From: Verrucomicrobiota bacterium
GTDB lineage: Bacteria; Verrucomicrobiota; Verrucomicrobiia; Palsa-1439
Length of the DNA: 47,068 nt
Direction: 5' to 3'
Assembly: GCA_003152315.1 (NCBI GenBank)
Contig: PLZV01000053.1
Span: 1-47,068, forward strand
The position numbers and the translations under genes were made by a program. Positions 5,420 through 17,572 of this stretch are shown here, piece after piece; position 1 is the first letter of the stretch, and each line of letters begins with the position of its first letter. Below the pieces are notes generated by a model. The model searched no databases, had not been told where the DNA came from, and saw only the letters and a program-made list of their open reading frames with translations.

Positions 5420-5821
5420 CGGCGGGCGACCGACAATCACCGCTTGCGCGGCAGCGTAGTCCTTCGAGTGGGAGAGGCTGACGAACACTTCCGTGACGCC
5501 ACGTGTCCGGGCCAGTTCCTCGCCCTTGCCGTGGAGCACGGCGTAGGGTTGGCCGCTGTCGCGTTTACGGATTTCCATGTCCTTCCAGCCGAGGTGATGC
5601 CCGATGCCCGTGCCGAACGCTTTCGAGAGGGCTTCCTTCGCCGCAAAGCGCGCCGCGAAATGCAGCGCCGGAAACTTCATGCCGTTGCAATAGGTAACTT
5701 CGCCGGGCCAGAAACAACGGTTCAGGAACCGCTCGCCGAACTTGTCGAGGGAATCCCGGATGCGGGCGGTCTCGACGATATCGACGCCTGTGCCCAGAAT
5801 GCGCGTGCCTTCGCTTTTCAT
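5399..5821 (-). CDS. acpS: holo-[acyl-carrier-protein] synthase
   Basis: A 140-residue cytoplasmic enzyme that transfers 4'-phosphopantetheine from CoA to acyl carrier protein. The conserved segments are all present: [12 protein letters not shown] with the Mg-binding Asp (about 10-21), [20 protein letters not shown] with the Glu (about 56-75), and [15 protein letters not shown] near the end. Its ATG overlaps the pdxJ stop by 4 nt (5818-5821), the classic pdxJ-acpS coupling. The 3' end overlaps the convergent lptF/G gene by 21 nt, so the two messages can form an antisense overlap. Confidence 0.93.
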
Positions 5822-6591
5822 CGCGTGGGTGGCGCCATCAAGGCGAGCATTTCACGGACGGCCTGCCGCAACCCCACGAAAAGCGCGCGGGACATGATGG
5901 AATGGCCCGTGTTCAATGTTTCCAGGTGCGGCACCGCGAGAATGGCCGGGGTGTTTTGGTAATTCAGGCCATGGCCGGCGTTCACGCGTACTCCCAGCTT
6001 ATGGGCCAACTCCGCTGCCGTCGTTAGTTTCTTAATCTCCGCCGCTTCCTCAAGCTCATGGCGCGCGTTCGCGAACGTGCCCGTGTGCAGCTCGACGAAA
6101 TCGGCGCCCGCATCGGTGGCCGCACGGATCTGTCGCGCATCGGGATCGACAAACAAGCTGACAACAATGCCCGCTTTCTTCAGCCGCGCGACGGTGCGCG
6201 CGAGGGATTTTGGCGCACCCGCCACGTTCAAGCCGCCTTCGGTTGTGACTTCCTGCCGCTTCTCCGGCACGAGGCAGACTTCATCGGGTTTCAATTCCTC
6301 GGCGAAGGCGATGATTGCCGGCACGTCTGCCATTTCCAGGTTCAAGCGTGTGCGGATGGTTTGGCGAAGCAAGCGGACGTCGCGGTCCTGGATATGGCGC
6401 CGGTCCTCGCGCAGGTGGACGGTGATGCCGTGCGCCCCGGCCAGTTCCGCCTCGACGGCCGCCCAGACCGGGTCCGGTTCGGGAATCGCGCCGGACAACT
6501 CGCGCGGGTTTCCCGCCGGGTACTGGGCAGAGCGGTAGCGTGCCTGTCGCAGAGTGGCGACATGATCGATGTTGACCCCGAGCTTCAGCAT
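5818..6591 (-). CDS. pdxJ: pyridoxine 5'-phosphate synthase
   Basis: A 257-residue TIM-barrel enzyme that joins 3-amino-2-oxopropyl phosphate and 1-deoxyxylulose 5-phosphate to pyridoxine 5'-phosphate, the last step of the DXP-dependent vitamin B6 route. Diagnostic stretches are [16 protein letters not shown] (start), [17 protein letters not shown] (about 56-72), [18 protein letters not shown] (about 106-123) and [11 protein letters not shown] (about 203-213). The protein is slightly longer than the E. coli enzyme. It is the first gene of a two-gene operon with acpS. A promoter-like pair ends 6 nt before the ATG and there is no Shine-Dalgarno site. Confidence 0.95.
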
Positions 6592-11560: not shown

Positions 11561-11659
11561 TGATTGGAAGCTGCCGATGGGCCTTGCAAGATTTTTGAAT
11601 CACGGTAGTATCGGGAAAGCGTCCGACATCTTCTTTAGTGAAGGAAACTTGCGATTGTT
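11561..11659 (+). repeat. left copy of ~100-bp direct repeat
   Basis: Diverged direct repeat matching 13113-13209. Shared blocks include GATTGGAAGC, TTGCAAG, TTTTTGAATC, CGGGAAA, ACATCTT, GGAAAC and TGCGATTGT in the same order. It precedes the glycosidase gene. Confidence 0.7.
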
Positions 11660-13077: not shown

Positions 13078-13456
13078 GTCGGTTTTCAGAATTAGGCGGA
13101 TCGCCTCGCGAGTGGATTGGAAGCGACCGACGGGCTTGCAAGGTTTTTGAATCGCGCTGCCACCGGGAAAAGTGTCACACATCTTGAATGACTGGAAACA
13201 TGCGATTGTGCGGCGTCCAGCCGGATCGCGTAGCCGTTCAGATCCCAGGGCATGTCGGGATGGGCCGCGCCTCAAGTGAAGATGCCGCTTAGTATCTCGC
13301 GCATGGATTCTTGTTTGCTGTGGCCTATCATGCAGTTGAATGCGCCCACAGTCTAACAGGGCGGGAACGGCGGGGCAAGTGGGCGAAGTTTAGATGCCGG
13401 CACGGTTCACTTTCGCATGAAGGTGCATAAGGATGGAGAGCCGAAGAGTCGTCTTG
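13078..13456. other. intergenic region
   Basis: Between the glycosidase and the 3' end of the WD40-GTPase-cyclase gene. It holds the right copy of the direct repeat (13113-13209) and otherwise nothing I recognise: no T-run hairpin and no convincing frame. Confidence 0.5.
13113..13209 (+). repeat. right copy of ~100-bp direct repeat
   Basis: Partner of 11561-11659, starting 36 bases after the glycosidase stop. By eye about three quarters of positions agree, with a few short indels. The two copies have the same orientation. Confidence 0.7.
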
Positions 13457-16400
13457 CTATTTAGGTCGTAGCACTGACCAGAGTATGAATTTACCCGGAA
13501 ATCCCTTGAGAGTGCAATTTGGGTGCTTTGTCCACTCAAGAGCTTTATGCGCCTTTGCTTTTTCCAGATCGATGTCGTCCTTCGCTCTACTGCTGACCCA
13601 AATCTCTGCATCCCTTCCATGGCTCTGCACGCGAGCGGTAAAGTTCACCATGGAACCGAACGCGTCTTTTTCTTCGATCGTGATTGGCCCAACGTGAATG
13701 CCGGCGCGAATTTGTATTCGCTCGTGCCCAGTATTGTCGTACAGAGAGAGGGTGAAATTTAATGCATCCAACGCTTGATGAAATGCAACCATAAAGGCAT
13801 CGCCTATGGTCTTTATTTCGTAACCATTATATTTTTGAATCAACGAGCGGGCCCTTTGAAAGTGGCTTCTGCGAACCCGATTCATTTGTTCATCGCCTAA
13901 TTCGGACCCCAAAGCCGCGGAGCCCACGATGTCTGTGAATACGATGGCTAGGGTTGTTCTTGAGGCGCCCGCCCATCTTCCGAAATCCTTAATTTGCATT
14001 TCCGCAACAGCTGAGACGAGCCCCGTATCAAGTTCACGACGCGCGTCTGCCGCTTCATCCATCTTGGTGATTGCCTGAATCGAAGCAGTCATCGATAGCT
14101 TGTCTTGTTCCAAGAGAGAGACTCGGTTACCGCAAACGTTGCACTCAATCCAATCGAAGCCCCGCTCTCTTCGCCTCGTCACCTGAATATCCGAGAGGGG
14201 CGTTAAGCAGCTCGTGCACCCTATTACAGACCTACGTTGTATTGTCTCCGTCAACGCTTTCCGCTGTAAGTGCGTGTGAACGTAGTCCTCGAACTGCATA
14301 CGGGATTCTGTACCCGTCGTACTATCAAAAAACAGGGTCAACTCGCCACGACCTTCGTCAAACTCTCGTAGCACAATACCGCACGTGCCGGGGGCCTTTG
14401 TTGCAAAAGTGACGGCGTTCTTCCAGATTTCCTTTTTCGTGAAGAAGCCACTGTGTGAGAGTCGCGCTACCAGCGTCGCGTAGATATTTAGAACCGGACC
14501 CTCAAAACTGAATATTACGGATTTTCCTTCTGGGTCGGGAAGATCGGGGCGTTCTCTGGTAAGTTGTGAGGGAAACACAAGATGAGTGCCATCATCTGTC
14601 GACTCCCGGAACGCGATTTCATGCCGCAGCAAATCCTCGACCATTGCGATCAAGAGAAGTTTTTCCTGCTCCCCATCTTTAATATGAACATCCTTTGGGA
14701 TTCGAAATCGTCCTTTGCGAGCGGCGTCCTCCTCAACGCATCCCATTCCGTCCGGTTCATTCTTCGCCGCATCAATAAGTGAAGCTGCGTACGCGTCGAG
14801 AAGTTCAGGTTGCAGCAAGACTAGGTTGCCGAAACTAAGTCTCTGTACCAAGTCCCGCGATTCCAAGCGGCCAATGCATACGTCAAAATCTGCGATGAGT
14901 GTCTTAGAATTGCGGAGCCCCTTCTTTGTTTTCAAGAAAGAGCGGTATAAGTCGTGCGTGGTAGATAGTATTTGACCGGCTGTTTTTTCTTGGAGAAGAA
15001 AGTCTTTGATCTGCTGAAAAAGCGTCTCCGACTTAACTTTTGGTAGGGAATCCCAATCAACCGCGCCTCGAATGCTCTGTTGCAGATCCTTGATATTCCA
15101 GCCCTCCTTTGCGCTGGTTTCAAAGAACCCGTCGAAATTGAACTCCTTTAGAAAAGCAGCTAAGCGCTCTTTGCTCACACCAATGCTGCCTCTGTCCACC
15201 CTTGCAGCAATAAGATATTTTTTCACGGGGTGAGTAAAATCACCTCTAATGCGTTCCGCTTGACGCAAGGCGCGCACCCAATGCCGCACTCCAGCAAATG
15301 GATCCGTCTCACTTCGTGCGTCAAACACCACTAAGGCTACGGAGACTTCGTTTAAGTGTAGCTGGTGCAAAAGACGGTAACCCGGCTGCCCTGCTAGATC
15401 CCACAACAACGTTTCGCGCATTTCATGGGTGCCGGTGCTCAGGTTTATCCTCGAGTTGTCAAAAATCCAAATGTGGCGACCGTGGCTCGAGTCGGTCTTC
15501 TCGTACTTTTGGCCTGAAAGTACTAAGCCAAGGCCGCTTTTGCCAACCCCCGAGTCCCCAACCAGCACAACCTTCGCGTTCGAATAAAAGCAGGCTTTCG
15601 TCGTGCGGCGCTTGAACAGGTCCTTTGAATCCAACTCCCAAATGGAAATTCCGGTATCCTTGTGACTAACTGTCGCAAGTATTAGCTGGTGGGGATGAAA
15701 TGCAACGCCGGGAGTCCAGAAACCTGAAGCTGTCGTATTGAGCATCGCGATCCGCTGCCAAGTGTCGGTTCGCCACAACCGTAGCCCACCATTTCTTGAT
15801 CTTGCGGCCAATAGACTCCCGTCGTGAGAGTAAGAGAGACAGCTGATGCTACTCCTCGGTGTCTCGAGTACATGGGCAATTTCAAGCGTCCGCATGTCAA
15901 AAATCGATATGCCTGCTTCGTAACCAACAGCACAAAAAGCTCCGTCCGGAGTCCATGCCAACGCGTGAGTGTAAATTGAGCGTCCGGGGAATTCCCTATA
16001 AAACACTCGCTTCAGGGTCTTCGATGCAAGCCAAAACGCATTGCTGTCCAGCGCCGCTAGGATCTTGCCATTTGGGGACCACTTCACGTCAAACATCAGA
16101 TGCGAGTGGCCAACCAATACCTTTACCTGCTCGTAAGTCTCTGTGTTCCAGAAAATCACTGTCCGGTCGCGAGAGCTCGTCGCCAGAAGTTTCCCGTCTG
16201 GCGACCACGCAGCGGAATACACAATGTCCGAGTGGCCCCTAATTACCTTTTCGAGCGCGCCAGTGTAGGGATTCCAGATTCGGACGGTGCGGTCGCGAGA
16301 CGTCGTAGCGAGTTTCTCTCCGCTTGGTGACCAGGCGGTCGTGAAAACATAATCTTTGTGTCCTTGTAGGGTTCTCAGCAGGATACCTGCGCCCGCATCC

Positions 16401-16537
16401 CACACCCGGACATTTTTGTCATCGGAGGGGGACGCGATCATCCGCCCGTCCGGAGACCAAGAAAACCGATTGATAGGCTCCTTAGCTCGCAGGGTCAGTC
16501 TAAGCGTAAAGCCCGCCGGAATTTTCTGCCTTTTCAT
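13457..16537 (-). CDS. WD40 - Ras-like GTPase - adenylate cyclase protein
   Basis: A 1026-residue multidomain signalling protein. Residues 12-305 form about seven WD40 blades (FSWSPDGRMIAS, GHKDYVFTTAWSPSGEKLAT, GHSDIVYSAAWSPDGKLLAT). Residues 321-495 are a Ras/Roc-like GTPase: P-loop GDSGVGKS (327-334), WDLAGQ (379-384), TSAK (474-477); the G4 motif NKxD reads ARVD (445-448). Residues 500-760 hold helical and winged-helix-like segments, perhaps COR-like. CTSC (774-777) and CNVC (799-802) make a four-Cys zinc site. Residues 862-1026 are a class III nucleotide cyclase with metal Asp 869 and 913, adenine-selecting Lys 909 and Asp 958, and catalytic Asn 965 and Arg 969, so an active adenylate cyclase is predicted. 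No signal peptide or membrane segment. CTCC (16545-16548) gives a ribosome site 7 nt before the ATG. Base composition is visibly less GC-rich than neighbours, suggesting transfer. Confidence 0.88.
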   Translation of the reverse strand: MKRQKIPAGFTLRLTLRAKEPINRFSWSPDGRMIASPSDDKNVRVWDAGAGILLRTLQGHKDYVFTTAWSPSGEKLATTSRDRTVRIWNPYTGALEKVIRGHSDIVYSAAWSPDGKLLATSSRDRTVIFWNTETYEQVKVLVGHSHLMFDVKWSPNGKILAALDSNAFWLASKTLKRVFYREFPGRSIYTHALAWTPDGAFCAVGYEAGISIFDMRTLEIAHVLETPRSSISCLSYSHDGSLLAARSRNGGLRLWRTDTWQRIAMLNTTASGFWTPGVAFHPHQLILATVSHKDTGISIWELDSKDLFKRRTTKACFYSNAKVVLVGDSGVGKSGLGLVLSGQKYEKTDSSHGRHIWIFDNSRINLSTGTHEMRETLLWDLAGQPGYRLLHQLHLNEVSVALVVFDARSETDPFAGVRHWVRALRQAERIRGDFTHPVKKYLIAARVDRGSIGVSKERLAAFLKEFNFDGFFETSAKEGWNIKDLQQSIRGAVDWDSLPKVKSETLFQQIKDFLLQEKTAGQILSTTHDLYRSFLKTKKGLRNSKTLIADFDVCIGRLESRDLVQRLSFGNLVLLQPELLDAYAASLIDAAKNEPDGMGCVEEDAARKGRFRIPKDVHIKDGEQEKLLLIAMVEDLLRHEIAFRESTDDGTHLVFPSQLTRERPDLPDPEGKSVIFSFEGPVLNIYATLVARLSHSGFFTKKEIWKNAVTFATKAPGTCGIVLREFDEGRGELTLFFDSTTGTESRMQFEDYVHTHLQRKALTETIQRRSVIGCTSCLTPLSDIQVTRRRERGFDWIECNVCGNRVSLLEQDKLSMTASIQAITKMDEAADARRELDTGLVSAVAEMQIKDFGRWAGASRTTLAIVFTDIVGSAALGSELGDEQMNRVRRSHFQRARSLIQKYNGYEIKTIGDAFMVAFHQALDALNFTLSLYDNTGHERIQIRAGIHVGPITIEEKDAFGSMVNFTARVQSHGRDAEIWVSSRAKDDIDLEKAKAHKALEWTKHPNCTLKGFPGKFILWSVLRPK

Positions 16538-16681
16538 CTGGCTTCTCCCAACGAAAACCGACTCTAGCGAACATCTAAAGCAGTTACAAATCGAATGTCG
16601 ACAGCTGGCAATGAGGATTGTGTGTGTGGAGGAGGGGGACGCGTTGGCGGGGCGTTGTGGCTACAAGGGCGCGGAAGCCAG

Positions 16682-16825
16682 TCAGTGGGTCTTATTTGAC
16701 TCCAAAAAGGTGCCTTCTTTTAGCTCTTCGAAGGCGTGGCGGAGTTGTTCCTGGGTGTTCATGACGATGGGACCGTTCCAACCGACGGGTTCTTTGAGGG
16801 GGTTGCCGGAGGCGAGGAGGAAGCG
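16682..16825 (-). pseudogene. pirin C-terminal remnant
   Basis: The last 47 codons, RFLLASGNPLKEPVGWNGPI then VMNTQEQLRHAFEELKEGTF, are the conserved end of the pirin C-terminal cupin (the 'GxPxxEPVxxxGPxVMNTxEE' region). A full pirin needs about 230-290 residues; upstream, the frame runs straight into a REP-like hairpin (16831-16850) and unrelated low-complexity sequence, with no N-terminal cupin and no metal-binding His residues. It is therefore the stump of a deleted pirin gene. Confidence 0.75.
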
Positions 16826-16830
16826 GATGA

Positions 16831-16850
16831 CACGGCGACAGAGCGCCGTG
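16831..16850. repeat. REP-like hairpin, loop ACAGAG
   Basis: CACGGCG and CGCCGTG form a perfect 7-bp stem around ACAGAG, followed by GCTACAACGG. It abuts the end of the pirin remnant. Stem length and loop match the hairpin at 17469-17488 (loop ACGGAG). Confidence 0.6.
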
Positions 16851-17058
16851 GCTACAACGGGGAAGGAATGGGACGAATAGGGCGAATGGGACGGATGTGG
16901 CGGGAAGTTCAATTCGGCCATTCGCAAGATCTCCGTCAGGCAAACATCGGTATTTTCCCTCTGGACATCGTATTCCGATAGTGGTAAGATGTGGGCATGT
17001 TTTTGGACAGGAACAGTAAGGGCGAGACGCCGCTGCACACCGGCAGGTCAAGAGGCCA

Positions 17059-17073
17059 CGGGCGGGACGCCCG
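17059..17073. repeat. REP-like hairpin CGGGCG-gga-CGCCCG
   Basis: Perfect 6-bp stem with a 3-nt loop, no T-run. It resembles the GGGCGGGCA/TGCCCGCCC hairpin after the rhombosortase gene. Confidence 0.45.
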
Positions 17074-17150
17074 CGCCACTATCGGCCGTTCGCCTTCGCC
17101 AGAAATACTGCGCGCACATCAGGCGCGAAAGAAATATGCCATTCTACCAA

Positions 17151-17160
17151 ACGAACCCAC
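17151..17160 (-). repeat. GGGTTCG-family half site
   Basis: On the minus strand GTGGGTTCGT, followed 80 bases on by the full palindrome at 17233-17264; the arrangement half-site then palindrome mirrors 1307-1432. Confidence 0.5.
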
Positions 17161-17232
17161 CGTTTTTTGACGGATTTTTTAATGGAAGTAACTATGAACA
17201 CATGCGTTGCGAAAGAAACTTGTGAGAGAAAT

Positions 17233-17264
17233 CGGTGGGTTCGTTTTCGAAAACGAACCCACCG
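17233..17264. repeat. GGGTTCG-family perfect palindrome
   Basis: A perfect 32-bp inverted repeat with no loop. Each 16-base arm reads CGGTGGGTTCGTTTTC. Same core as 1400-1432. It is followed by a G-rich run, not a T-run. Confidence 0.85.
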
Positions 17265-17395
17265 GGAGGGGGTTTTGAGGGGGCCAGAGGCCGGAAATGG
17301 GGCAAACGAAGCCAGTTTTTGGGTGGGGGGAGGAAGGAGATTGCCGCGAAAACATCGTCGCGGCGTCTCGCAGACTCGGCTTTCGGTCGGTCGGA

Positions 17396-17420
17396 GTGCG
17401 CGGTCGGGAGACCGGCGCAC
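17396..17420. repeat. GTGCG...CGCAC hairpin
   Basis: Stem GTGCG/CGCAC, small internal loop, then GGTC/GACC closed by a GGGA tetraloop. Part of a longer block (CGGTCGGAGTGCGCGGTCGG) that, from memory, recurs in genomes of this group. Confidence 0.5.
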
Positions 17421-17468
17421 AACGGGGAGGGTCTACGAGGGCACAAGTGAAGGGGTTGCGCCTCATGC

Positions 17469-17488
17469 GGCCACGACGGAGCGTGGCC
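17469..17488. repeat. REP-like hairpin, loop ACGGAG
   Basis: GGCCACG and CGTGGCC pair perfectly around ACGGAG, followed by CTCCAA. Same 7-bp/6-nt geometry as 16831-16850. Confidence 0.6.
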
Positions 17489-17572
17489 CTCCAATTTAAG
17501 GCACTACCAAACCGGCGTGTTATTTGGGGAGAGTTCGTTTAGGATTTTGGCGATGAAAGTGGCAGGTTGAGC

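Follow-up and report, generated by a model that had tools for sequence, protein, structure and literature searches.

A WD40–GTPase–COR-like–cyclase protein as a probable member of a scattered bacterial family of immune-receptor-like proteins

Introduction

The closest described relatives in kind of the protein presented here are the LRR-AP-GTPase(Roc)-COR-effector conflict proteins. According to Kaur et al. 2021 (PMC8195603), LRR-AP-GTPase-COR proteins carry at least 24 C-terminal domains and are proposed to be conflict systems, and GTPase-COR conflict proteins with exchangeable effectors are to that extent already known in kind. The available text of that paper mentions neither WD40 repeats nor a cyclase for this group, and its source data may list WD40 members. 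The prokaryotic Rocos described so far are LRR-RocCOR proteins, and in Roc-COR proteins the GTPase is coupled to dimerisation (PMC6337361). In Roco proteins such as C. tepidum Roco, LRRK2 and DAPK1, the Roc-COR tandem couples the GTPase to other domains, and its control over an attached enzyme is a standing problem for which LRRK2 is the best-known case. Bacterial receptors of the STAND/NLR type (NACHT or AP-ATPase with WD40) combine a repeat sensor, an NTPase switch of the AAA+ ATPase kind and an exchangeable effector, and Pycsar employs a class III-type cyclase as immune signal generator, in a two-gene cyclase/receptor operon whose product is cCMP or cUMP.

Here, we analyse a gene within a 47,068-nucleotide stretch of bacterial DNA (the window). 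Its product couples a GTPase to other domains as the Rocos do, but carries an N-terminal WD40 propeller where the described prokaryotic Rocos have LRRs; LRRK2 has its WD40 domain at the C-terminus and a kinase as output, whereas here the propeller is N-terminal and the output a cyclase. The plan of repeat sensor, NTPase switch and exchangeable effector is that of the STAND receptors, yet the core is a Ras-like GTPase with no STAND core, and unlike the Pycsar cyclases, to which its reading as an immune signal generator is comparable, the gene has no partner gene. Searches of open-licence papers found no description of a WD40-GTPase-cyclase protein or of a class III cyclase under WD40-GTPase-COR regulation. 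With its WD40, Roc-like GTPase, COR-like and cyclase parts, a soluble bacterial protein of this kind would offer a direct enzymatic readout of the Roc-COR coupling.

Results and discussion

An earlier note, made from the sequence alone, had read the gene as a single polypeptide joining a WD40 propeller, a Ras/Roc-like GTPase, four cysteines and a class III cyclase. A Pfam search of the 1026-aa protein agrees (WD40, E 7e-44; at residues 322-488 Ras, E 6e-18, 65 bits, and Roc, E 2e-14, 54 bits, each exceeding the cut-off; at residues 862-1012 class III cyclase, E 6e-19). All the parts named are present, while a COR-like domain of ~275 aa between the GTPase and the cysteines had been overlooked (Table 1). 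A chance architecture is excluded because the survey of homologues suggested in that note returned, from an Armatimonadota MAG, a full-length match whose domains stand in the same order (L001; 54% identical overall and 61% identical from the GTPase to the cyclase). An assembly chimera or chance fusion was ruled out by the presence of this architecture in both L001 and L069, a relative from the window's own class, and a pseudogene by the intact frame and the conserved catalytic residues.

Table 1 Features of the gene and of the encoded protein
Feature	Coordinates	Strand	Basis
Complete gene, 1026 aa + stop	13457..16537	(-)	single open reading frame
WD40 beta-propeller, residues 10-305, predicted sensor/scaffold	15623..16510	(-)	Pfam, AF2, Foldseek
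Ras/Roc-like GTPase, residues 318-495	15053..15586	(-)	Pfam and G motifs
Divergent COR-like region, residues 496-770	14228..15052	(-)	hhalign; no Pfam match
Four-Cys probable zinc site, residues 771-806	14120..14227	(-)	conserved C774, C777, C799, C802
Linker, residues 807-856, helical in a low-confidence model	13970..14119	(-)	AF2
Class III nucleotide cyclase, residues 857-1026	13460..13969	(-)	Pfam and catalytic residues

The propeller has seven WD40 blades, was modelled by AF2 with a pLDDT mostly of 80-93, and has as its best Foldseek match the prokaryotic WD40 domain 5yzv (TM 0.94 to target). Prediction of the full-length structure, another suggestion of the note, succeeded for this part; the remainder is not interpretable, as the AF2 models of the full-length protein and of the COR-like region are unusable outside the propeller because of a shallow alignment with two eligible sequences. 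A PADLOC match to HEAT-ARM_XIII (residues 16-133, inside the WD40 domain) was read as repeat cross-matching. Between the window protein and L001, a single pair, identity is 37% in the WD40 domain and about 60-65% in the GTPase, COR-like and cyclase domains; this faster divergence of the sensor would be expected of a target-binding part, yet is also usual for WD40 repeats. In three relatives the blades of a single protein closely resemble one another (mean identity 0.76 in L031, 0.46 in L028 and 0.51 in L029), which suggests recent repeat amplification in the sensor.

The GTPase motifs read as noted before, with complete G1 (VGDSGVGKS), G3 (WDLAGQ) and G5 (TSAK) and an altered G4, AARVD, that is, ARVD for NKxD, in which the canonical Asn/Lys is missing and the Asp kept. 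In an alignment of 17 rows (the window protein and 16 relatives) the G4 Asp is present throughout (17/17), the Lys position is occupied by Arg in 15 rows and by Gln in two, and G1, G3 and G5 are likewise kept among distant members with differing effectors. On this alignment the altered G4 is a family trait, not decay. Switch I reads SSHG in the window protein and STHG in most relatives.

For residues 496-770 and the cysteine region, Pfam gave noise only, without a COR match. A profile of nine cores was aligned by hhalign with the COR domain of LRR-Roc-COR proteins at a probability of 82 and E 1e-5 over 242 colinear columns; the score of 49.1 compares with 23.2 for the best of 100 column-shuffled controls and 16.0 for a reversed control. 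Without the Cys tail, the score falls to 31.5 and the probability to 14, and we therefore call the region COR-like and not COR. The four-Cys site of the earlier note is present, its segment aligns with the tail of the COR domain in LRR-Rocos, and it probably constitutes a zinc site: the four cysteines are invariant in the nine aligned cores, and among the 17 rows the first pair is found in all and the second in 16, its spacing being shifted in L069.

All six canonical cyclase residues are where they had been reported, namely the two metal-binding Asp residues D869 and D913, the Lys/Asp base pair K909 and D958, which is the canonical adenylate-type pair, and the transition-state residues N965 and R969. 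The same six are found in the class III adenylate cyclases Ma1120 of M. avium and LipJ/Rv1900c of M. tuberculosis, the nearest solved structures in the PDB. As to whether homologues usually lose these residues, four of the five cyclase-bearing members (the window protein, L001, L069 and L030, the cyclase of the latter being 40% identical to that of the window) keep all six. The exception is L071 (2432-5065, genome G932), whose cyclase has D958 replaced by Glu and R969 by Ala and is followed by a TIR domain; this degenerate cyclase is possibly a nucleotide-binding pseudo-cyclase. The genome of the window encodes no class III cyclase besides this one and has genes for four cNMP-binding proteins.

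The impression of a one-off fusion did not hold, as the protein represents one of several effector variants within a modular family, in which cyclase, TIR, DUF4365, SEFIR and metallophosphoesterase plus CHAT domains are found on the same core. Genomes were sampled from a one-per-species collection, and cyanobacteria, like phyla other than those named below, were covered through plasmids. A plasmid search with the core returned a Calothrix protein with a C-terminal TIR and a Nostoc protein with a C-terminal metallophosphoesterase plus CHAT, encoded on mobilisable and conjugative plasmids. Across 291 Armatimonadota genomes, a profile search gave L027 with a TIR, L030 with a TIR and the intact cyclase in one chain, L028, L029 and L031 with DUF4365, and the fragment L032. 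Among 384 genomes of the window's class there were seven carriers, that of the window included: L069 bears a cyclase; L071, truncated at the contig end, the degenerate cyclase and TIR; L070, L072, L073 and L074 an N-terminal TIR (Pfam-confirmed in L070, recognised by eye in the other three) and a C-terminal DUF4365; L075 a SEFIR/TIR-like effector; L076 a TIR at both ends; and L077 is a fragment. Three paralogues, each with a different effector, occur in G932. In a sample of 388 genomes of the phylum, a single-sequence search yielded mostly unrelated cyclases and the profile search only the window's own copy and one GTPase-only match; scans of IMG/VR with queries A1 and A2 found no viral relative. 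The architecture, its conservation, the exchange of effectors and the patchy distribution can all be read directly from these sequences.

In a tree of the 17 rows, from which the fragments L032 and L077 were left out, the WD40 family is monophyletic (100/100) against a comparison group of six LRR-Rocos from one phylum. The window protein, L001, L069 and L071 form the main cyclase clade (97/98), which nests among TIR-bearing members, and L030 falls outside it, beside the TIR protein L076; judging from the tree, either an ancestor with both TIR and cyclase lost parts, or cyclases were gained twice. Set against PMC8195603, the family has in common with the LRR-AP-GTPase-COR proteins a Ras-like GTPase with a COR or COR-like domain behind it, exchangeable C-terminal effectors (TIR included) on a constant GTPase core, fast-evolving N-terminal repeats (in the one pair compared above) and several effector-differing paralogues in one genome. 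Apart from its separate position in the tree, it differs from them by the WD40 propeller in place of the LRR, a COR unseen by Pfam, a G4 without Asn-Lys, four conserved cysteines, and effectors that comprise the cyclase, DUF4365, SEFIR or metallophosphoesterase/CHAT. What appears new from the sequences is an effector-exchanging WD40-GTPase-COR-like family, with relatives in Armatimonadota, on two cyanobacterial plasmids and in the window's class.

The gene was probably acquired, and recently so, since it is absent from ten relatives, among them a sister species that keeps the flanks, and has a low GC3. Specifically, the core was found in none of 10 relatives of the same order, and the same-genus genome G397 retains both flanking genes, for a GAF-histidine kinase (94%) and a glycoside-hydrolase-like protein (75%), with unrelated genes between them. 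GC is 0.512 in the gene and 0.581 in the window, and GC3 is 0.556 against 0.746-0.823 in the neighbours. The earlier suggestions of a transferred gene that is less GC-rich than its neighbours are supported by these data. That the gene stands alone is likewise correct, its neighbours being metabolic and regulatory, and so is, at the locus, the statement that no effector gene is adjacent, the four cNMP-binding proteins being encoded in the genome. The window has no phage or plasmid context and no adjacent PycTIR or PycTM gene, and both its copy and L001 lie among metabolic genes outside any defence island. Some relatives have other neighbours: L072, a TIR-WD40-GTPase-COR-DUF4365 gene, adjoins a homologue (5492-6421) of the PADLOC phage-defence candidate PDC-S36 (E 7e-100), L070 adjoins a HAD-TIR protein, and the Calothrix gene adjoins a TIR gene. 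These neighbours, together with the TIR, SEFIR, DUF4365 or CHAT effectors found on this core in relatives, lend indirect support to the earlier note's idea of an anti-phage switch.

The gene is thus probably one member of a scattered, GTPase-built family of immune-receptor-like proteins. For the protein itself we favour, at slightly better than even chances, an NLR-like conflict receptor that stands alone: the WD40 part would act as sensor for a GTPase of the Roc-COR type, and this GTPase would in turn assemble the enzymatic output, in this case cAMP synthesis. The propeller would sense a trigger, probably an invader or damage signal, and the Ras/Roc-like GTPase would respond with a change of nucleotide state; the COR-like/four-Cys segment would turn that state into the assembly of a dimer or oligomer, and the assembly would join two cyclase domains, the effector being switched on by proximity. 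Such assembly would activate the cyclase because class III cyclase active sites form between two chains. The product would be a cyclic nucleotide, most likely cAMP, to be read by cNMP-binding proteins encoded elsewhere in the genome, and in relatives the same core may drive TIR, SEFIR, DUF4365 or metallophosphoesterase/CHAT effectors; switching by proximity would make TIR, cyclase and other enzymes interchangeable on one core. Sensing, GTP gating, dimer control, product and defence role are what we infer, along with a propensity to dimerise that the protein may share with the Rocos.

Several observations argue for the conflict receptor: one core with differing effectors in 16 relatives, including the three paralogues of G932; cyclase proteins nested among TIR-bearing ones, a faster-diverging sensor and conserved G motifs; COR homology above shuffled controls and an intact cyclase in four of five members; absence from ten relatives, plasmid-borne members, and TIR genes or the PDC-S36 homologue beside some relatives; the sole class III cyclase of the genome together with four cNMP-binding proteins; and the proposal, in PMC8195603, that the LRR-AP-GTPase-COR proteins are conflict systems. 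Counted against it are the metabolic-gene setting of the window copy and L001, the window's lack of phage or plasmid context, the weak COR match without the Cys tail and the G4 without its canonical Asn/Lys. That cyclase, TIR, SEFIR, DUF4365 and phosphoesterase replace each other on one core suggests a receptor type that parallels the NLRs and is built on a GTPase. More tentatively, and with the balance tilted against it, one may picture a bacterial family, distinct from both STAND/NLR and LRR-Roco proteins, of immune receptors that sense through WD40, are powered by a GTPase and take plug-in effectors; its member in the window would be a one-protein immune cyclase: invaders sensed by the propeller would flip a Roc-COR-like GTP switch and raise a cyclic-nucleotide alarm via unlinked receptors.

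The best-surviving alternative, which we regard as unlikely though worth weighing, is an ordinary signalling adenylate cyclase that converts a metabolic or stress cue into cAMP for CRP-type regulators and takes no part in defence. The intact cyclase with its adenylate-type Lys/Asp pair fits this well, and so do its standing as the sole class III cyclase alongside four cNMP-binding proteins and the metabolic or regulatory neighbours; however, patchy presence (absence from ten relatives) and probable acquisition speak against a housekeeping regulator, and relatives carry TIR, SEFIR, DUF4365 and CHAT on the same core. We consider it quite improbable that the cyclase makes cGMP, cUMP or cCMP, as in Pycsar, and signals to a partner encoded elsewhere: weak matches to PycC in PADLOC (E 0.016-0.04) and the union of TIR and intact cyclase in L030 point that way, but K909 and D958 form an adenylate-type pair, the closest structure in the PDB is that of mycobacterial Ma1120, the pyrimidine-specificity residues reported in PMC11224242 are not matched as a set, and a PycTIR or PycTM gene is absent next door. 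Equally poor are the prospects of a degenerate, non-switching GTPase scaffold regulated by WD40-driven oligomerisation alone, to which the G4 without Asn and usually with Arg for Lys and the SSHG of switch I would lend themselves, because retention of G1, G3, the G4 Asp and G5 across distant, effector-differing members indicates selection for nucleotide binding, and prokaryotic Rocos bind GDP at micromolar affinity with fast release (PMC6337361), so that weak binding need not mean loss.

Short repeats are present in the spacers around the gene, as counted by occurrence and not against chance. Upstream of the gene lie a perfect inverted repeat of 16+16 bases with no spacer (17233-17264) and a degenerate 9-base tandem repeat (16866-16901). 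The region 13078-17566 of the window is variable, and its counterpart in G397 (L061) instead encodes a repeat-rich protein of 701 aa and one resembling prepilins. Positions 11561-11618 and 13100-13170 both match one 72-base intergenic piece of L061 (392-463) and, by their sequence, are two copies of a short element that flank the glycoside-hydrolase-like gene.
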